Assembly: GCA_945890485.1 (NCBI GenBank)
Contig: CAMDCN010000021.1
Location: 62,001 to 126,000 of the forward strand
From: Candidatus Sulfopaludibacter sp. SbA3
Lineage (GTDB): Bacteria; Acidobacteriota; Terriglobia; Bryobacterales; Bryobacteraceae
Reading direction: 5' to 3'
Length of the DNA stretch: 64,000 nucleotides
The translations under genes and the position numbers were made by a program. Position 1 is the first letter of the stretch. The number at the start of each line of letters is the position of its first letter. Under the pieces are notes generated by a model. The model was given only the letters and a program-made list of their open reading frames with translations, had not been told where the DNA came from and searched no databases. Shown here piece by piece: positions 55,473 through 64,000 of this stretch.

Positions 55473-55900
55473 ACAAGGCATTCCGGCAAGGCCAGATTCT
55501 GAAGCTCATCTCCTATCAGCAGATTCACACGCAGGACGAGATCGCCCAGAAACTGGCCAAGCTCGGGGTGCCCGCCACCCAAGTCACGCTCTCTCGCGAC
55601 ATCCGTGAACTTGGCCTCGCCAAGACACCACAAGGCTATCAGCGCCTAGCCGCCCCCGCTCCCGGCGGCCCCACGCTCACCACCATCCTTAGCGAGTACC
55701 TCCTCGATATCCGCGAGGCTCAGCAGCTGCTCGTCCTCAGGACGCCTCCCGGCCACGCCTCCACCCTCGCCGCCGCCCTCGACCGTGCCGCTTGGCCCGA
55801 ACTCGCCGGCACCATAGCCGGGGACGATACCGTCCTCGCCATCGCGCCGGACCTGGCCAACGCCCGCAAGCTCAAACGCCGCCTGCTCCGCCCCTCTTAA
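55469..55900 (+). CDS. argR: Arginine repressor ArgR
   Basis: 143 aa. N-terminal winged helix (about 5-70; FRQGQILKLISYQQIHTQDE, ATQVTLSRDIRELGLAK) and C-terminal hexamerisation/arginine-binding domain with GTIAGDDTVLAIAPD. With arginine it should bind the ARG boxes at 53068-53105, closing an autoregulatory loop. The ATG overlaps the argH stop (ATGA). Its own stop overlaps the convergent hpnD by 4 bp. Confidence 0.95.
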   Translation: MNKAFRQGQILKLISYQQIHTQDEIAQKLAKLGVPATQVTLSRDIRELGLAKTPQGYQRLAAPAPGGPTLTTILSEYLLDIREAQQLLVLRTPPGHASTLAAALDRAAWPELAGTIAGDDTVLAIAPDLANARKLKRRLLRPS

Positions 55901-56748
55901 AACGCCCCCGCCAGCTTCTTCGTCCCGGCCTCCACCACCAGCCAGACTTTCTCGAACGTCGACAGCCGGATCCGTCCATCGAGCACCCGGTACTGCTTCT
56001 CTTCAATTCGCTGCAGCAGCCGGGAGTAGATCTCAATCAACGCCCACAACGACGCCCGGCTTCCCCGCTCCACCATCCCGATCAGCGGCCGCGCCTCGTC
56101 GTAGTAAGCCCGCGCCCGTCCGGCCTCAAACTTCATCAGCTCGACGAACCCCGGCGTATACGCAATCCCCCGGGCATCCACGCCAAACCGGCGCAGATCC
56201 TCCGCCGGCACGTACATCCGCCCCAGTCCCGCATCCTCCTGCACATCGCGCAGAATGTTCGTCAACTGGAACGCAATGCCGCATTTCTCGGCCAACTCCA
56301 ACGCCTTCGGGTTCTCGAATCCAAAGATGTGAATGATCGTCAGCCCCACCACGGAAGCCACCCGATAGCAGTACTGATACAGGTCCGCAAACGTCTCCAC
56401 CGGCTTCGGCGTCAAGTCACTCGACACCCCGTCGATCATGTCGAAGAAGTACTGCCGCGGAATCCGAAACCGTTCCACCGTGTCATGGAATGCCGGCCAC
56501 ACCGGATGGTTGCCGTATTCGCCGCGCAGCGCCCGTTCCAGGTCGTTCCGCCACTGCGCCATGGTCTCCGCGGTCGTCCCTTCGATATCATCGCTCAAGT
56601 CGTCACAGTAGCGCATGAAAGCATACACGGCGCACATCGCGTCGCGCTGCTCCTTCCGCAGCAGTACAAACGAGTAGTAGAAGTTCTTCGCCCGGCTCCG
56701 CGCCACGTCCCGGCAGTAAGCGTAGGACTGTTCTACAGCCTTGGTCAC
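55897..56748 (-). CDS. hpnD: Presqualene diphosphate synthase HpnD
   Basis: 283 aa squalene/phytoene synthase-family protein. In the HpnCDE route HpnD condenses two farnesyl diphosphates to presqualene diphosphate. Both Asp-rich motifs are present (RYCDDLSDD; LTNILRDVQEDAGLGRMYVP), with ARSRAKNFYYSF at the N-terminus. The frame is open upstream, but a GTG overlapping the hpnC stop (GTGA, 56748) gives the family-consistent start. It is last gene of the hopanoid operon. HpnC and HpnD are close paralogues; the assignment rests on sequence style and order. Confidence 0.88.
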   Translation of the reverse strand: MTKAVEQSYAYCRDVARSRAKNFYYSFVLLRKEQRDAMCAVYAFMRYCDDLSDDIEGTTAETMAQWRNDLERALRGEYGNHPVWPAFHDTVERFRIPRQYFFDMIDGVSSDLTPKPVETFADLYQYCYRVASVVGLTIIHIFGFENPKALELAEKCGIAFQLTNILRDVQEDAGLGRMYVPAEDLRRFGVDARGIAYTPGFVELMKFEAGRARAYYDEARPLIGMVERGSRASLWALIEIYSRLLQRIEEKQYRVLDGRIRLSTFEKVWLVVEAGTKKLAGAF

Positions 56749-57644
56749 GCCGACACCCACAGCGCCTTCAGCAGCAGTCCCACCCGCTCCAACTTTCCGA
56801 TCTTCGGCCGCTCTTTCAACACATCCCATCCCTGCCGTGCAATCTTATCCAGCACCGCCAGCCCCCCCTCACTGAAGAGCCGCAGATCGAGCGCCAACCG
56901 CCGGTCCACCATGCCCGGCAGCGCCAGGCCCTCTTCGAACAAGCGTCGCGCCACCCCACAGGCTTCTTCCATCACGCGGGCAAACCCCGGCGTAAATCTC
57001 CGTTCGAAAAGGTCGGCGTCGGTGACCCCATGCCGCGCCATCAGGTCCTGCGGCAGATACACCCGATCCTTGCCCGTATCCACCGTCACATCCTGCCAAA
57101 AGTTCGCCAATTGCAGCGCCGTGCAGGTCTTGTCGCTCAGCGCATACCGTGCCGCGTCTCGATATCCACACAAGCCCAACACCAACCGCCCCACCGGATT
57201 GGCCGAATAAACGCAGTACTCCAGCACCTCGTCCCAATTGGCGTACCGCGTCTTCACTTGGTCCTGCTCAAACGCAAAAATCAGATCGGCAAACGTCTGC
57301 CGGTCCAGCTCATACTGTCGCACCGTCGGCCCCAGCGCTACGAACACCGGATGGCTCGCCGCCCCGGAGTACATCCGGTCCAACTCCTCGCGCCACCAAC
57401 CCAGCAACCGCAGGCTCTCCGCCACATCGCCAATCTCATCGCCCAAGTCGTCGGCCCACCGGCAGAACGAGTAGACGTTGTAGAAATCCTGGTGCAGCTT
57501 CTTTGGAAGCAGCACGCTCACCACGTGAAAATTCTCATAGTGCGAAGTCGCCAGCCACTTCGTATAAGCCAGGGATTCCGCCGCTGTCCAAACCCGACCC
57601 ATCGCCGCGGCGTCGCGAACAAAGTCTTTCGGCTGGAGATGCAC
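56745..57644 (-). CDS. hpnC: Hydroxysqualene synthase HpnC
   Basis: 299 aa, GTG start abutting the preceding dehydrogenase stop. Squalene/phytoene synthase family with SHYENFHVVSVLLPKKLHQD near the N-terminus and Asp motifs FCRWADDLGDE and LANFWQDVTVDTGKDRVYLP. HpnC converts presqualene diphosphate to hydroxysqualene. The third enzyme, the FAD-dependent HpnE that makes squalene, is not in the window. Confidence 0.88.
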   Translation of the reverse strand: MHLQPKDFVRDAAAMGRVWTAAESLAYTKWLATSHYENFHVVSVLLPKKLHQDFYNVYSFCRWADDLGDEIGDVAESLRLLGWWREELDRMYSGAASHPVFVALGPTVRQYELDRQTFADLIFAFEQDQVKTRYANWDEVLEYCVYSANPVGRLVLGLCGYRDAARYALSDKTCTALQLANFWQDVTVDTGKDRVYLPQDLMARHGVTDADLFERRFTPGFARVMEEACGVARRLFEEGLALPGMVDRRLALDLRLFSEGGLAVLDKIARQGWDVLKERPKIGKLERVGLLLKALWVSA

Positions 57645-58688
57645 TTAGGGAATAATAGCGGTTTTCATACGACCGCTCGAATTCATCAGGTACCGCAATA
57701 CCTCTTTGATCTTGTGAAGCGGCTCTTCGCCCACCACGAAATCACGCGCCCGAATGTCGCCCCGCGTCACCGCCAGCAACGCCTTCTGAATCAGCTTCGG
57801 CGTGTGATGGAAGCTAGCCTTGCACGTTAGCTCCGAGTAGTGCAGCAGGTTCGTATCGAGCTGAACTTGCGTCTCCGTTGGGCACCCTCCGAAGAAGTTC
57901 ACGGTTCCGCCTTTGCGTAGCATCCGTACAGCCAAGTCCCACACTTCCGGCTTGCCCACGGCTTCAATCACGACATCAGCACCCCGCCCATCGGTCAGCC
58001 CGCGCACCGCCCCAGGAACATCGTCGGTTTCCGCCGTCGAAATCAGCTCCGCCGCGCCCATGCGCTTGGCGTCGTCGAGCTGCACCTGCCGGCGCGCAAT
58101 CGCAATCACCCGCGCCCCCATCACCTTCAACATCCGCACGAACATGAGGCCGATGGGCCCAAGCCCAATCACAACCACGGTATCGCCCTTGCGAACATTG
58201 CTCTCTTCAATCCCACGCAGTACACAAGCCAGCGGTTCGGCCAGCGCCGCATCCACGTAGTCCACCTGTTCTGGAACCGCGTAGAGATTTTTCTCCACAA
58301 TCCGTCCCGGAATCCGGATGTATTCCGCGTAGGCGCCGTTGTTGAAGAGAAGATCCTCGCAGAGGTTTTCCAGCTCGCGCTTGCAATAAAAGCACTCCCC
58401 GCAAGGCGCGGAGTTTGCCGCCACCACGCGCTGCCCCGTCCGGAACTTCGAAACCTCCGCACCCACCGCTACGATATCGCCCGCCAACTCGTGCCCAAAT
58501 AGCGCCGGCGGCATAATCATCCGGGCATGGTAGCCCCGCCGAAACACCTTCACGTCGGTCCCGCACGTCAACGCCGCCTTCACCCGCACCAGCACGTCAT
58601 TCGGACCGAGCTTTGGTATAGCAACCCGCTCGATCTTTACGTCCTCTTTGCCGTATAGGACGGCGGCCGTCATTTGCTGATTGTTCAC
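57645..58688 (-). CDS. Zinc-dependent medium-chain dehydrogenase (first of two in the hopanoid operon)
   Basis: 347 aa from a GTG overlapping the previous stop (GTGA). MDR/sorbitol- and threonine-dehydrogenase-like. Catalytic zinc ligands are C42 (TCGTD) and H66/E67 (GHE). The structural zinc Cys are 96, 99, 102 and 110 (CGECFYCKRELENLC). Nucleotide-binding GLGPIG at 175-180 is followed by VIAIARR, which lacks an acidic residue after strand 2, so NADPH is possible. The substrate is unknown. Translational coupling on both sides to hopanoid genes suggests a role in polyol side-chain or terpenoid chemistry. Confidence 0.8.
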   Translation of the reverse strand: MNNQQMTAAVLYGKEDVKIERVAIPKLGPNDVLVRVKAALTCGTDVKVFRRGYHARMIMPPALFGHELAGDIVAVGAEVSKFRTGQRVVAANSAPCGECFYCKRELENLCEDLLFNNGAYAEYIRIPGRIVEKNLYAVPEQVDYVDAALAEPLACVLRGIEESNVRKGDTVVVIGLGPIGLMFVRMLKVMGARVIAIARRQVQLDDAKRMGAAELISTAETDDVPGAVRGLTDGRGADVVIEAVGKPEVWDLAVRMLRKGGTVNFFGGCPTETQVQLDTNLLHYSELTCKASFHHTPKLIQKALLAVTRGDIRARDFVVGEEPLHKIKEVLRYLMNSSGRMKTAIIP

Positions 58689-59743
58689 GAGCGGTAACCT
58701 TGGGGCTTCACTACAATTTTCAGTGATTCTGTCGTTGGATGCAACGCCAGTTCAAAACCGTCCATTATCTGTTCGAGCGGCACGCGGTGCGTCACAAGCT
58801 CTTCCACCGGCAGTGCGCCGCTGAAGACAAGATCGGCGGATTCGCGCTGTAAATCCACATCGGCGCTGTAGGAACCCAAAAGAACACGTTCCCCCATGCA
58901 GATGTCTTTGCCGGATAGCTCGATGCGCTCTTTGTCGGACGTCTGTGCAAACAATACTATTTTCGCACCTGGACGCGTCACGCGTATGGCCTCCTCCACC
59001 ACGCCCGGCGCCGACACCGCCACGAACACAATGTCCGCTCCCCGGCCTTCCGTCCTCGCGGCCGCTTCGGCCTGCAGGTTGTCCACCTTCGGGTCCAGCG
59101 CCTTTTCGGCCCCGAATCGTTCGCCCATCGCCCGGCGGCCCGCCATCCGATCCGTCACCAGCGTCCGTATGCCTTTGTGCTTCAGGATCATCGTGAAGAT
59201 CAACCCGATCGGCCCCTGACCCATCACAATCGCCAACTCGTCCGGCCGCGGCGCCGCGAGCGCTACGCCCTTTACGCAGGTGTTTACCGGCTCAACGAAA
59301 CTCGCGGCGTCAAAGCTAACGCCATCCGGAATCTTCTCCACCCCCCGCTCCACGATCCAATCCATCACCCGGATGTATTCGGCAAACCCGCCGCCCGCCG
59401 GTTCAAACCCCGCCGTAATCCCCACGCGCTTGTACCCCGGGCATTGCGCATACAGCCGCCGCGCGCAGTAGAAGCAGTTCGAACAGGGAATATGGTGGAA
59501 CGCCACCACGCGGTCGCCCACGGCGAACTTCGTCACGCCTTCGCCCACCGCCGCCACCACACCGGCCGTCTCGTGCCCGTAGATCCGCGGAGGCGTCAGC
59601 AGGTCGTATTCAATCTTTTTCAAATCGGTGTGACAGATGCCGCAGCTTTCCACGCGGACGAGCAACTCTCCCGGCCCTACCACCGGCGTCGGAATCTCCT
59701 CCACCACCACTTGGCTTTTCCCGCGGTACACGGCCGCTTTCAT
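58685..59743 (-). CDS. Zinc-dependent medium-chain dehydrogenase (second of two in the hopanoid operon)
   Basis: 352 aa from MKAAVYRGKS; the frame is open 8 codons further up, but that would overlap hpnG by 20 bp. MDR family with catalytic zinc residues C34 (CGICHTD), H57 and E58, structural zinc Cys 87, 90, 93 and 101 (CSNCFYCARRLYAQC), GQGPIG (175-180) and D198 after strand 2 (TLVTDRM), suggesting NAD(H). It lies 4 bp after hpnG. It is a distant paralogue of its downstream neighbour and differs in probable cofactor. The substrate is not known; a sugar or polyol alcohol is typical of the relatives. Confidence 0.8.
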   Translation of the reverse strand: MKAAVYRGKSQVVVEEIPTPVVGPGELLVRVESCGICHTDLKKIEYDLLTPPRIYGHETAGVVAAVGEGVTKFAVGDRVVAFHHIPCSNCFYCARRLYAQCPGYKRVGITAGFEPAGGGFAEYIRVMDWIVERGVEKIPDGVSFDAASFVEPVNTCVKGVALAAPRPDELAIVMGQGPIGLIFTMILKHKGIRTLVTDRMAGRRAMGERFGAEKALDPKVDNLQAEAAARTEGRGADIVFVAVSAPGVVEEAIRVTRPGAKIVLFAQTSDKERIELSGKDICMGERVLLGSYSADVDLQRESADLVFSGALPVEELVTHRVPLEQIMDGFELALHPTTESLKIVVKPQGYRS

Positions 59744-59747
59744 GAAT

Positions 59748-60413
59748 TCAGAGTTCACACTGGGCAAGAAAATCTCCTAAAGCTTCTGCTGCTTCCCGGC
59801 CGCGCCGAGCCATCCGAAGTAAGTCGCCAGGATGGCGAATTCCGGCCAGCGCGATCCGCGCCTTTTGAAACCGGCCGTCAGCATCCCGATAGCGATTAAA
59901 ATCCAACGCAAAATCCTCGGTGGCCAAATCGCTCACCACCCGGACAGCATAAAACGAACCGGCAAACCGTAGCCCGCCCGCTTCCATCTCCACCGCATCC
60001 GCCCCCCGCTGCCGCAAATCCGCCTTCTCAGCCGCCGTGCGAATGAAGCGGTCCCCAGACCACAAAACGCCCCGCCGCGCCGCCGGCATCTTCCGCGGCG
60101 CCAGCGCGGCACGGTCCCCCGCCTCCGTCCGCACTCCCAACGCCACAAACACATCGTTCAACTGCAGCGCCGGATCGAGCGCCCCGCACCACCCAATGCT
60201 CATCACGGCCGAAACCGTCTCCCGCTCGCGGGCCGCGGCCAATCCTGCCGCCGCCAACCGGGGCCCCGCGCCATTGGCGACCATCGTCAACGCCTGCCCG
60301 TTCCATTCGGCCTGCCACGCAAAGTCCACCGGCCAGTCCAGCTTCCGCACACCTTTGCAGTGGCGCAACCAGCCCGCGAACTCCATCCCATCGGAAGCGA
60401 CTGCCACAATCAT
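59748..60413 (-). CDS. hpnG: Hopanoid-associated nucleosidase/phosphorylase HpnG
   Basis: 221 aa nucleoside-phosphorylase-fold protein. HpnG removes adenine from adenosylhopane to give (phospho)ribosylhopane. Features: ANGAGPRLAAAGL, VMSIGWCGALDP, ADAVEMEAGGLRFAG (active-site MEAG region) and VVSDLATEDF. The long open frame upstream is antisense-like; the ATG at 60411-60413 overlaps the hpnA stop (ATGA). The radical-SAM gene hpnH, which makes its substrate, is not in the window. Confidence 0.85.
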   Translation of the reverse strand: MIVAVASDGMEFAGWLRHCKGVRKLDWPVDFAWQAEWNGQALTMVANGAGPRLAAAGLAAARERETVSAVMSIGWCGALDPALQLNDVFVALGVRTEAGDRAALAPRKMPAARRGVLWSGDRFIRTAAEKADLRQRGADAVEMEAGGLRFAGSFYAVRVVSDLATEDFALDFNRYRDADGRFQKARIALAGIRHPGDLLRMARRGREAAEALGDFLAQCEL

Positions 60414-61387
60414 GCGCAGTACCCGTTCGCCCGGAACCATTCCGCCGCCCGCTCCAGGCCCACCTTCGCCGGCGCCGGCGCGTAGCCCAACTCCCGCGCC
60501 GCCTTGGCATGCGTCACCCACATCTTCTTGCGCGCCATCTTCACCCCTTCGAGCGGCGCCCGCGGCGCCTCACCCGTCAAAGAGGCCCAGCCCGTGCTCA
60601 CCAGCGCCGCCACATACGCCACCGCATATGGCACCTGGAACTTCGGCGGATCGCCCAGCGCGGCAAAGATCTGCCGCAGCGTCAGGTTCTCACTCCCCAA
60701 GATGTACCGTTCCCCCACGCGTCCCTTCTCGGCCGCCAGCAAATGCCCCCGCGCCACGTCCCGCACATCGACCACGTTCAAACCCGTATCGAGATACGCC
60801 GGCATCCGCCCAGCCAGGAAATCGACAATCGTCTGCCCTGTAGGCGTCGGCTTGAAATCGTGGTCGCCCACCGGCGCCGTTGGGTTCACAATCACCACCG
60901 GAAAGCCGTCCGCCGCAAACTCCAGCGCCACCCGCTCGGCCAGAAACTTCGAGCGCTTATAGTGCCCGGTCATATCCTCGAGCTGCACCGGCAGCGACTC
61001 ATCCCCCAAGCCCCCGGCCACGAATTGAACACACCCCACCGTGCTCGTATAGACCACCCGCTCCACTCCCGCCGCCCGCGCCGCCGCCAGCAGGTTCCGC
61101 GTTCCTTCCACGTTCGACCGGTACAACTCCTCCGGCTCCTTCGACCATAGCCGGTAGTCCGCCGCCACATGGTACACCACACCGCACCCTGCCACGGCAC
61201 GGTCGAGCGAGGCCCGGTCCTGCAGGTCCCCCGTCACTACCGCGAACCCTGTGTACCGCTCCGGCAACTCCCGCACCGGGTTGCGGCCCCGCGTCAGCGC
61301 TCGCACCGCTATGCCACTTTCGGCCAATTGTTGGGCGACGTGCCAGCCCACAAATCCGGAAGCCCCGGTGACCAATGCCGGTTTCAA
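60410..61387 (-). CDS. hpnA: Hopanoid-associated NAD-dependent sugar epimerase/dehydratase-like HpnA
   Basis: 325 aa extended short-chain dehydrogenase. Rossmann motif LVTGASGFVGWHVAQQ at the N-terminus, NVEGTRNLLAAARAAGVERV and the YxxxK pair (YKRSK). The TTG start overlaps the shc stop (TTGA); extending upstream would run into shc. HpnA co-occurs with hopanoid genes, but its reaction is not settled. Confidence 0.88.
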   Translation of the reverse strand: MKPALVTGASGFVGWHVAQQLAESGIAVRALTRGRNPVRELPERYTGFAVVTGDLQDRASLDRAVAGCGVVYHVAADYRLWSKEPEELYRSNVEGTRNLLAAARAAGVERVVYTSTVGCVQFVAGGLGDESLPVQLEDMTGHYKRSKFLAERVALEFAADGFPVVIVNPTAPVGDHDFKPTPTGQTIVDFLAGRMPAYLDTGLNVVDVRDVARGHLLAAEKGRVGERYILGSENLTLRQIFAALGDPPKFQVPYAVAYVAALVSTGWASLTGEAPRAPLEGVKMARKKMWVTHAKAARELGYAPAPAKVGLERAAEWFRANGYCA

Positions 61388-63300
61388 CGCTCTGCTTTCA
61401 GGAACGTCGAAAGCGCCAGTAGCGGGAACGAGTTCCGGTAAAGGTGGTATCGCAGGTAGAACACATTTGGGAAGCCCGTACCCGTGGCCGCGTCTTCCGT
61501 CCAGGTGCCGTCCGCGTTCTGGTTCTGAATCAGGTACTCCACGCCGCGCTGCACGCTCGACGAATAGGTATCGCCACTCGCCAACAGGCCCATCACCGCC
61601 CAAGCCGTCTGCGAGGGGGTCGAAGCCGCCGCCACGAAACCGTTGCCCCGATAGCTTTCCGGGCTTTCGCCCCAGCCGCCATCCGCATTCTGGATCGAGC
61701 GCAGCCACTCGCCCGCCCGCAGCACGTGGACCTCACGGTCGCTTTCGCCCGCCGCCCGCAGCCCCCGCAAAGCAAAGCAGGTGCCGTAAATATAGTTCAC
61801 ACCCCAACGCCCTTGCCAGCTACCGTCGGCCTCCTGCGAATTCACGAGATAGGCCAAACCTTTGCGAATCGCCGCATGGTCAGTCGAGACGCCATGCAGT
61901 GCCAACGCCTCCACCACGCGCCCCGTAATGTCCGGGCACGTCGGATCGAGCATCGCATTGTGGTCCGCAAACGGCACATCGCTCAGAAACTGCCAGTTGT
62001 TGTCGACGTCAAACGCCGCCCAACCGCCATCGGTCGACTGCATCGCCAGCAGCCAATTCACCGCGCGCTTCTCACAGCTCGCTTGCGAAGCCGATTTTTC
62101 GCACTTCGAAAAATGCAGCCCCAGCAGCACCATCGCGGTATCGTCGATATCCGGATAGTGCTCGTTGGCGAACTCAAAATACCAGCCGGAGGGTTCCACG
62201 TCCGGACGCTTTACGCTCCAGTCGCCCTTCCGCCGCACTTCTTTCGTCAGCAGCCAATCACCCGCCCGAGTCATTACCTCTTTCGGCGCCATGCCGCTTT
62301 CGCCCAGCGCATGGGAGGCGATCGCCGTATCCCAAACGACGGAAAAGCATGGCTGGAAAAAGAAACGCTTCCCGTCGTCCACCATTAAATTGGCGAACTG
62401 ATTCTCCGCTTCCGCCCGATCCTGATGCTCCGGCCCGAAACCAAGCAGGTCCATCGCCATGATGGTGTACATCATTGGCGGGTAGATCGCGGCCAGCCCA
62501 TCGGTGTACCGCGTCCGCTCGGTGATCCAATCCATCGCTTTGCGGATAGCGCGCTGCCGGATCGCCCCGCTGCCATACTTCTCCCACCACTTGAAAACCT
62601 TGTCGATCCGGAGGAACGTGTTCCGACGGTTAAAGAAACCATCATCGCGAGGTAACTCCAACGTCACCCCGGGCACGAGAAGTTCCTCCAGCGAAAAGCT
62701 ATGCGGCACCGGCCGCGGCTCAATCGTCATCGCGTGAACGATCGACAGAGGAATCACAATTGCCCGCGTCCACGAGCTCATCTCGTAGATCACTTTTCCC
62801 AGCAGAATCAGCTCCGGAGGAATCGATGGTACATGCTGGCGCGGATACAATCCGAACAGGCTCAGGTTGATCTTCACGTAGCTGTTGGCGGCTTGTAATC
62901 CGCCCAGGCTCAGAATGCACTCGCGCAGCGACGCCATCCGCGGCTCGTCCACGGAAATCCCCGCCGTCTTCAGCGCGAAATAGGCCTTCACCGAAGCATT
63001 TACGTCCGGCGGGCCCCCCAGGAAGATGTTGAAACCGCCTCCCGGAAGTTGCCGTTCGAGAATCGAATGGACAGCCCGGTCGATCTGCATCCGCGTCGGC
63101 GGATTCCATTCGCCGTTGTGGGGAGGGTAGAGCCACAACTGCAGCAGAACGTAGTCTGACTCCAACGTGGTGTCGGCGGTCAGATCGCCCCACCAGTATC
63201 CAGCGTCATGCTGGTTGCCCACGAACCAGTCCACCGACCGGCGGGCAGCTTGCGCCGCGGAGGCCACCAGCGCGTCTGTTACTTGCAGGCTGGGGGTCAT
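61384..63300 (-). CDS. shc: Squalene-hopene cyclase
   Basis: 638 aa. Cyclises squalene to hopene and hopanol at the membrane. The DxDD acid motif is D384-D387 (DIDD). Several QW-type repeats are visible (QSTDGGWAAFDVDNNW; QEADGSWQGRWGVNYIYGTC; QNADGGWGESPESY; QNADGTWTED). The start (ATG 63298-63300) overlaps the ispH stop by ATGA, tying hopene formation to the MEP pathway enzyme. Confidence 0.97.
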   Translation of the reverse strand: MTPSLQVTDALVASAAQAARRSVDWFVGNQHDAGYWWGDLTADTTLESDYVLLQLWLYPPHNGEWNPPTRMQIDRAVHSILERQLPGGGFNIFLGGPPDVNASVKAYFALKTAGISVDEPRMASLRECILSLGGLQAANSYVKINLSLFGLYPRQHVPSIPPELILLGKVIYEMSSWTRAIVIPLSIVHAMTIEPRPVPHSFSLEELLVPGVTLELPRDDGFFNRRNTFLRIDKVFKWWEKYGSGAIRQRAIRKAMDWITERTRYTDGLAAIYPPMMYTIMAMDLLGFGPEHQDRAEAENQFANLMVDDGKRFFFQPCFSVVWDTAIASHALGESGMAPKEVMTRAGDWLLTKEVRRKGDWSVKRPDVEPSGWYFEFANEHYPDIDDTAMVLLGLHFSKCEKSASQASCEKRAVNWLLAMQSTDGGWAAFDVDNNWQFLSDVPFADHNAMLDPTCPDITGRVVEALALHGVSTDHAAIRKGLAYLVNSQEADGSWQGRWGVNYIYGTCFALRGLRAAGESDREVHVLRAGEWLRSIQNADGGWGESPESYRGNGFVAAASTPSQTAWAVMGLLASGDTYSSSVQRGVEYLIQNQNADGTWTEDAATGTGFPNVFYLRYHLYRNSFPLLALSTFLKAER

Positions 63301-64000
63301 ACGGGGGCGGGCATGCTGATCTGAGTGAGGCGCGCGCTATTCAACTCTGGAGGCAACTGGAACCGGACATCCTCTTCCCGGACTTCCAACTCTTCCACGT
63401 CGGCAAAACCGTTCTCTTTCAGGGAGTCCATAATCTGCTCAACCAAGTGCTCCGGCGCCGAAGCCCCGGCCGTGATCGCCACCGACTGCACCCCGCCCAG
63501 CCACTCCGTCCGCACGTCGGAGGCGTCGTCCACCAGATACGCCGGCACTCCAGAGTTCTGGCAAACTTCCACCAAACGCTGCGAATTCGAGCTGTTCTTT
63601 GAACCCACCACCAGCAGAAGATCGCACAGGGGGGCGACCGCCTTGACGGCCACTTGCCGGTTCTCCGTCGCGTAGCAGATATCCTGCGAATGCGGACCTT
63701 GAATCAGCGGGAAACGCTCCACCAAGCGCTTCACAATATGGCTGGTCTCATCCAGGCTCAGCGTGGTCTGCGTCAGATAGGCCATCTTGGACGGATCGGC
63801 CACTTCCAGGCGGTCCACGTCGTCCACGTTCGAAACCAGCTTCATCGCCTCAGGCGCCTCGCCCAACGTGCCGACGACTTCATCGTGGTTTTCATGGCCG
63901 ATCAGGACAATCGAGTATCCCTTGCGCGCAAACTTCACGGCCTCAAGATGCACCTTCGTTACCAGCGGGCAGGTCGCGTCGATCACCTGCAAGCTGCGCT
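63297..64000 (-). CDS. ispH: 4-hydroxy-3-methylbut-2-enyl diphosphate reductase IspH (5' end cut by window edge)
   Basis: Fe-S enzyme making IPP and DMAPP, last step of the MEP pathway. About 234 residues are visible; the N-terminus with the first cluster Cys is outside the window. Seen: DATCPLVTKVH (second cluster Cys), GHENHDEVVGT (His/Glu of the substrate site), DICYATENRQ (third Cys) and SKNSSNSQRL. The frame is still open at the window edge. It shares an ATGA junction with shc, so it leads or lies within the same operon. Confidence 0.95.
   Translation of the reverse strand, partial: RSLQVIDATCPLVTKVHLEAVKFARKGYSIVLIGHENHDEVVGTLGEAPEAMKLVSNVDDVDRLEVADPSKMAYLTQTTLSLDETSHIVKRLVERFPLIQGPHSQDICYATENRQVAVKAVAPLCDLLLVVGSKNSSNSQRLVEVCQNSGVPAYLVDDASDVRTEWLGGVQSVAITAGASAPEHLVEQIMDSLKENGFADVEELEVREEDVRFQLPPELNSARLTQISMPAPV

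Follow-up and report, generated by a model that had tools for sequence, protein, structure and literature searches.

Which enzymes turn ribosylhopane into bacteriohopanetetrol (BHT), and are two dehydrogenases encoded directly behind hpnG involved in this step? The question is raised by an operon of genes (hpn) for hopanoids, membrane lipids akin to sterols, in Candidatus Sulfopaludibacter sp. SbA3, where two zinc-dependent medium-chain dehydrogenases (MDRs), here called MDR1 and MDR2, stand between hpnG and hpnC. The window, i.e. the whole stretch of DNA that was analysed, is 64,000 nucleotides (nt) long. An earlier, sequence-only reading of this DNA took the BHT-forming reductase to be unassigned, in agreement with the accessible text of PMC5462960 (Sinninghe Damste et al. 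2017) and of PMC12583986 (2025), the latter treating the enzyme for this conversion as not established, and put the two dehydrogenases forward as candidates. We provide evidence that in these Acidobacteriota the pair is part of the set of hopanoid genes. Its most likely single function is that of a lineage-specific redox pair which serves the hopanoid pathway at the side chain, to which we assign a probability of roughly 40%.

The link between hpnG and the dehydrogenases, on which the sequence-only reading relied, extends beyond this genome. From at least 564 confirmed relatives of MDR1 we took the best 80, on which the following gene-order counts rest: 71 show the order hpnG-MDR1-MDR2-hpnC, eight are cut by a contig end, and in one the gap behind hpnG is wider. 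All 80 are consistent with linkage and no other gene order occurs among them, an arrangement far beyond chance. Where the junction of MDR1 with MDR2 is measurable (74 loci), the two genes share 4 nt in 39 cases, and hpnA-hpnG-MDR1-MDR2-hpnC is also found in one further locus each of families f69, f70 and f72 (in our codes f denotes a family, g a genus, G a genome, L a locus and C a contig, with G000 being the genome of the window). The titles of the 80 records are acidobacterial except for L214 (CALQCC020000014.1), which is titled Bordetella parapertussis, holds this same hopanoid operon and is probably mislabelled.

For the phylum we sampled 199 Acidobacteriota genomes, together with 14 control genomes. 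MDR1 orthologs (E <= 2e-103, with a clean gap to the next best match at 3.3e-63) are present in 29 of the 199 genomes, and MDR2 orthologs (E <= 3.4e-118) in the same 29 and in G132. The two proteins thus occur together in every MDR1-positive genome, even when the genes are unlinked: in 12 of the 29 they lie apart, MDR1 with hpnG (hpnA-hpnG in 11) and MDR2 at the head of hpnC-hpnD(-hpnE). MDR1 adjoins hpnG or hpnA in 28 of the 29, with hpnG as the next hpn gene before it in 21, and MDR2 adjoins hpnC or hpnD in 28. The sole exception is G066, where the MDR1-MDR2 pair stands by itself. A side observation concerns G132, which has no MDR1 ortholog: here the operon-type MDR2 ortholog (53%; locus L121) has a gene for a multihaem cytochrome a few kb away, and no HpnH or Shc was found in this genome despite the presence of MDR2.

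The presence of the pair also follows that of HpnH. We surveyed 299 genomes of the class, each at least 90% complete and together covering 115 genera; at most seven or six candidates per genome were scored for the HpnH and MDR1 lists, which were then matched by hand. Both proteins are found in 249 genomes, HpnH only in 11, MDR1 only in seven and neither in 32, i.e. 18 genomes are discordant. By genus the corresponding numbers are 88, four, one and 22 (Fisher p 1.5e-18, where species kinship is ignored, as it is in the counts themselves). In the phylum sample 28 genomes have both, 22 have HpnH only, one has MDR1 only (G113, which has Shc) and 148 have neither. Fourteen of the 32 class-survey genomes with neither protein were checked (f70, f71, f74 and f75), and no Shc was found in them at E <= 1e-40; their best MDR2 match (E 6.7e-50) falls short of a full ortholog. 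Among the 11 HpnH-only genomes, G203, G211, G307, G350 and G365 carry MDR2 (the copy of G365 is partial and lies where its contig begins), and in G007, G225 and G307 the contig with the hpn genes stops where MDR1 is expected. Consequently, some of the HpnH-only cases are assembly gaps. Among the genomes with MDR1 only, HpnH of G461 is split and exceeds the cut-off with a weaker E-value, and no HpnH was found at E <= 1e-15 in G378, G439, G455 and three genomes of g159.

Both proteins are recognised by the two MDR domain models: PF08240 and PF00107 score 90.7 and 69.0 bits for MDR1 and 90.0 and 97.7 bits for MDR2 (Pfam gathering scores 23.5 and 31.8). The zinc ligands, whose presence the sequence-only reading had noted, catalytic (C37, H57 and E151 in MDR1; C42, H66 and E151 in MDR2) as well as structural (Cys 87, 90, 93 and 101; Cys 96, 99, 102 and 110), are invariant in an alignment of 22 MDR1 proteins (A1) and in one of 25 MDR2 and MDR2-like proteins (A2). 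The split in cofactor site that it had described is borne out by the aligned residues: D198 in MDR1 of the window stands against A198 in MDR2, and among the operon-type proteins the NAD-selecting residue is Asp or Glu in all 28 MDR1, while 28 of the 29 MDR2 have a non-acidic one there. Judged by these residues, MDR1 is of the NAD type and MDR2 probably of the NADP type.

Comparison with known families assigns no substrate to either protein. Their best NCBIfam matches (E 1e-42 to 1e-49) are L-threonine 3-dehydrogenase and scyllo-inosose 3-dehydrogenase (IolM), polyol-type MDRs that have the fold and the zinc ligands in common with MDR1 and MDR2, but the cut-offs are not reached: 146-169 bits against 380-458 for the former (TIGR00692 and NF003808), and 145 and 169 bits against 450 for the latter (NF041097). 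Among the matches listed, no NCBIfam cut-off at all is passed by either MDR. Using AlphaFold2 models (pLDDT 89.6 for MDR1 and 89.8 for MDR2), the 50 best Foldseek matches listed per protein are all MDR-type dehydrogenases (TMq 0.79-0.90), with an identity of at most 30%. In sequence searches and in searches with the predicted folds both proteins appear among generic MDRs, the only kind of relative in the PDB matches listed, a placement from which no substrate is predicted.

A quick tree of 116 MDRs places the MDR1-like proteins (54 rows) in one clade and the MDR2-like ones (47 rows) in its sister, with SH-aLRT values of 97 and 99, though with long-branch warnings (117 proteins were collected after dropping matches below 250 residues, and one row below 310 residues was omitted). 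Distant tandem pairs from f34, f45, f47, f60, f32 and f66 contribute to both clades and the pair is therefore an old duplication: according to this tree, MDR1 and MDR2 are old sister paralogues. The distant pairs lie apart from hpn genes (there is one weak HpnG-like match of 49 bits about 8 kb away in G078), and where their neighbours were identified (f47, f34 and f60) these are housekeeping or transport genes, which give no functional hint. In the f32 genomes G096 and G123 the two MDR relatives are unlinked.

Loci in which the pair is kept with hpnG and away from the squalene genes argue for a function at the side chain. In eight f68 loci (seven of g156 and one of g158), all from HpnH-positive genomes, hpnG-MDR1-MDR2 are the sole hpn genes detected by ten profiles in the 14-20 kb fetched, and in two loci of f71/g181 the cluster shc-hpnH-hpnA-hpnG-MDR1-MDR2 ends at MDR2, with no hpnC or hpnD after it. 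Together with the conserved hpnG link and a presence that tracks HpnH, the eight g156 and g158 loci favour the earlier proposal that the MDRs act as ribosylhopane reductase. After removal of adenine by HpnG, the pair would act on the C35 side chain or on its free sugar form: MDR2, with its NADPH-type pocket, may take ribosylhopane in its open-chain form and reduce the aldehyde to what becomes the terminal alcohol of BHT, while MDR1, with its NAD-type pocket, might work on a side-chain hydroxyl in the opposite direction, or be a dispensable accessory. The carbonyl or hydroxyl would be polarised by zinc, and hydride would move to or from the nicotinamide. A more specific version holds that the pair is the missing step from ribosylhopane to BHT in Terriglobia, with MDR2 as NADPH reductase and MDR1 as NAD partner jointly setting the side-chain stereochemistry and with unrelated enzymes doing the work elsewhere; this we consider unlikely.

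A number of observations weigh against a side-chain function. In all three g159 genomes of f68 (93-99% complete) neither Shc (E <= 1e-40) nor HpnH (E <= 1e-15) is found, hpnA is absent from the clusters (its presence or absence being judged within the fetched loci), and hpnG is open in one genome and a remnant in two, and yet ispH-MDR1-MDR2-hpnC-hpnD-hpnE is retained. Compared with G386, an HpnH-positive relative with a full cluster, relative rates in g159 are 1.04 for MDR1, 1.04 for MDR2 and 1.03 for ispH (1.11 for hpnC and hpnD), normal values for both MDRs. The ratio of nonsynonymous to synonymous changes (dN/dS) between G447 and G459 is 0.065 for MDR1 and 0.077 for MDR2, at near-saturated dS. 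For G447 and G463 the ratios (MDR1 0.168, MDR2 0.495, hpnC 0.226, hpnE 0.257, ispH 0.094) are based on few changes and were left unused. MDR2 of the latter two genomes has an altered residue adjoining the catalytic Glu, so that slow decay is possible.

The converse is observed as well: 21 of the 22 HpnH-positive genomes of the phylum sample that lack operon-type MDR1 (the 21 coming from nine families) match the HpnG model, and in 16 of these hpnG lies right beside hpnA or hpnH. The operon-type pair is thus not present wherever HpnH and HpnG are; in these 21 genomes it may be replaced by another enzyme or, in f32, f47 and f66, by the distant pairs. Both f73 genomes have hpnG-MDR2-hpnC without MDR1. 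The four HpnH-positive genomes of g169 and g174 (f71) have no MDR1 or MDR2 ortholog; Shc is found in three of them, and their hpnH-hpnA loci are without hpnG. Seven f28 genomes carry hpnA-MDR1-MDR2-hpnD (hpnC-hpnD in G188) with no hpnG between or beside, and in f34, f45 and f60, which have distant tandem pairs, no HpnH or Shc is found at E <= 1e-60. Since the best 80 relatives are acidobacterial by title, L214 excepted, the question of linkage outside the phylum rests on four plasmid-borne hpn clusters of Pseudomonadota and Streptomyces, none of which has the MDR pair within 15 kb of hpnH. In Roseomonas a lone zinc dehydrogenase of generic type (85 bits) is encoded some 12 kb away from hpnH, and the MDR1 search of plasmids returned 145 records, with less than 35% identity for all of the 15 matches listed. 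For bacteria at large, the pair does not explain the step from ribosylhopane to BHT. Some genomes depart from the pattern expected: in view of g159, the 21 HpnH-positive genomes, f73 and the seven f28 genomes, reduction of ribosylhopane is not supported as the sole role.

Part of this arrangement has been described before. In its accessible text PMC5462960 reports that acidobacterial bacteriohopanepolyol clusters carry two genes, ug1 and ug2, for which no functions are given. By position alone, ug1 (following hpnA-hpnG) corresponds to MDR1, and ug2, a zinc-binding alcohol dehydrogenase of about 350 amino acids before hpnC, to MDR2. In that text ug1 is not called a dehydrogenase, nor are ug1 and ug2 related to each other; the paralogy, the cofactor split and the survival without shc are added here. 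The same text is inconsistent on one point: ug2 is said to be in all genomes of subdivisions 1 and 3 (SD1 and SD3), yet elsewhere to be missing from SD3 clusters.

After a redox role on the side chain, the next explanation to be weighed, in itself somewhat unlikely, is a general redox role (on a small polyol, a sugar or a 5-deoxyribose-like aldose) that predates hopanoids, the genes having been recruited to or parked in the operon and being co-regulated there. It would account for tandem pairs of other families which split one per sister clade away from hpn genes, for f34, f45 and f60 being without HpnH or Shc, for the retention of the pair in g159 and for the solitary pair of G066. Nonetheless, the operon-type subclade is missing together with HpnH in four families (together with Shc too in the 14 genomes checked), and it is rarely found without HpnH and Shc.

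It might also be argued from the position of MDR2, which abuts hpnC or hpnD in nearly all of the 29 genomes and heads their cluster when the pair is split, that the enzymes act at the level of squalene, for instance on hydroxysqualene (the allylic secondary alcohol which HpnC produces) or on a prenyl alcohol formed as a by-product. The g159 clusters, with the pair and hpnC-hpnD-hpnE kept where shc, hpnH and hpnA were not found, fit this explanation, as do seven MDR-less hopanoid neighbourhoods that have a gene cluster of squalene-synthase type (one member of each gene cluster was checked against models). It is weakened by six f28/g40 genomes and G103, which keep the MDRs while no HpnE is found at E <= 1e-40. 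Moreover, no hpnC lies beside MDR2 in the five f28/g40 loci tested and in G139, hpnG-MDR1-MDR2 is away from hpnC and hpnD in g156, g158 and g181, and according to the accessible text of PMC5462960 hpnC and/or hpnE are missing from some SD1 genomes although ug2 is in all of them; taken together, we regard action on squalene precursors as improbable. To a similarly low degree we believe that HpnA makes BHT from ribosylhopane, as PMC5462960 proposes in the text accessible, and that the MDRs modify the side chain further, in its stereochemistry, towards penta-functionalised forms or in head groups made of a sugar or cyclitol. The gene hpnA is present in 15 of the 17 MDR-less shc-hpnH loci (it is missing from L044, and L068 ends before it) and is consequently retained more broadly across the phylum than MDR1 and MDR2 are, but studies cited in PMC5462960 found it non-essential for BHT in Burkholderia cenocepacia and absent from Rhodopseudomonas.

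With regard to HpnG, the protein of the window scores 88.6 bits, far below the TIGR03468 cut-off of 187.1, which is reached by HpnG in none of the 199 phylum-sample genomes; at E <= 1e-10 the model also matches in six of the 14 control genomes. The gene is therefore assigned by its position and family. In Acidobacteriota, HpnG seems to form a divergent branch, with a nucleosidase or phosphorylase as the putative activity.

The operon itself runs on the minus strand in the order ispH-shc-hpnA-hpnG-MDR1-MDR2-hpnC-hpnD, with junctions ranging from a 4-nt overlap to a 4-nt gap (Table 1). The coordinates agree with the gene order, the junctions of 4 nt or less and the start/stop overlaps of the sequence-only reading; because ispH overlaps shc by 4 nt upstream, the operon is longer than stated there. 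Overlaps of 4 nt likewise join hpnA to the shc stop (TTGA), hpnG to hpnA (ATGA) and MDR2, which has a GTG start, to MDR1 (GTGA). The ATG of MDR1 follows hpnG after a 4-nt gap (if MDR1 began instead at the TTG at 59767, it would run into hpnG), hpnC follows MDR2 with zero gap, and the probable hpnD start overlaps the hpnC stop. IspH (TIGR00216), Shc, HpnA and HpnC score above their NCBIfam cut-offs, and HpnD slightly below (259.8 against 278.6 bits). Beyond the operon, the genome has hpnH on contig C18, hpnE on C10 and a second shc on C5 (G000:C5:378001-379875, locus L070), which is 52% identical to shc of the window. Two shc copies are also known in Ca. Solibacter usitatus, as the accessible text of PMC5462960 reports.

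Table 1. Genes of the hopanoid operon in the window (positions are those of the window).
Gene	Position	Strand	Description
MDR1	58685..59743	-	Zinc-dependent medium-chain dehydrogenase; NAD-type site (D198); signature GQGPIG
MDR2	57645..58688	-	Sister zinc-dependent medium-chain dehydrogenase; non-acidic cofactor site A198-R-R, probable NADP
hpnG	59748..60413	-	Divergent HpnG / PNP-family nucleosidase-phosphorylase; below TIGR03468 cut-off
hpnA	60410..61387	-	Hopanoid-associated short-chain dehydrogenase/reductase (SDR) epimerase (TIGR03466); TTG start
shc (hpnF)	61384..63300	-	Squalene-hopene cyclase
ispH	63297..63992	-	3' part, 231 amino acids, inside the window; TIGR00216
hpnC	56745..57644	-	GTG start
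hpnD	55897..56829	-	Limits of the open reading frame; true start probably near 56748

Some further observations concern neighbouring genes. In g159 (L264, L265 and L266) hpnC-hpnD-hpnE are kept together though no Shc or HpnH was found. A single HpnD-type synthase adjoins MDR2 in f28/g40 (L072-L076 and L079), where HpnE was not found in six of six; the loci tested for hpnC and found to be without it are L072, L073, L075, L076 and L079. At L041, L044, L047, L049, L054, L058 and L063, hopanoid neighbourhoods from several further acidobacterial families, a squalene-synthase-type gene is present, in some cases with mevalonate-pathway genes, and no hpnC or hpnD is nearby. Finally, a protein of about 142-186 amino acids follows hpnH in 16 genomes, including that of the window (L069; another example is L089:7326-7856). 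The one member that was scanned gave no Pfam or NCBIfam match; going by the accessible text of PMC5462960, it is probably ug3 of that paper.

A literature search of titles and abstract openings, mostly outside subscription papers, yielded no assignment of the BHT-forming enzyme. Bodlenner et al. reportedly observed in 2015 a cell-free ribosylhopane reductase activity in Methylobacterium organophilum. This is the reaction proposed here for the MDR pair; its gene is not established according to the accessible text of PMC12583986, and none of the four plasmids lacking the pair near hpnH comes from Methylobacterium. BHT and related compounds serve as membrane lipids in bacteria and as biomarkers in geology. 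The natural exceptions (g159, f73, and g169 and g174 of f71) caution against assigning the step from gene neighbourhood alone and at the same time provide ready-made controls. With a conserved pair of dehydrogenases beside hpnG, the question of how BHT is formed becomes testable in culturable acidobacteria.

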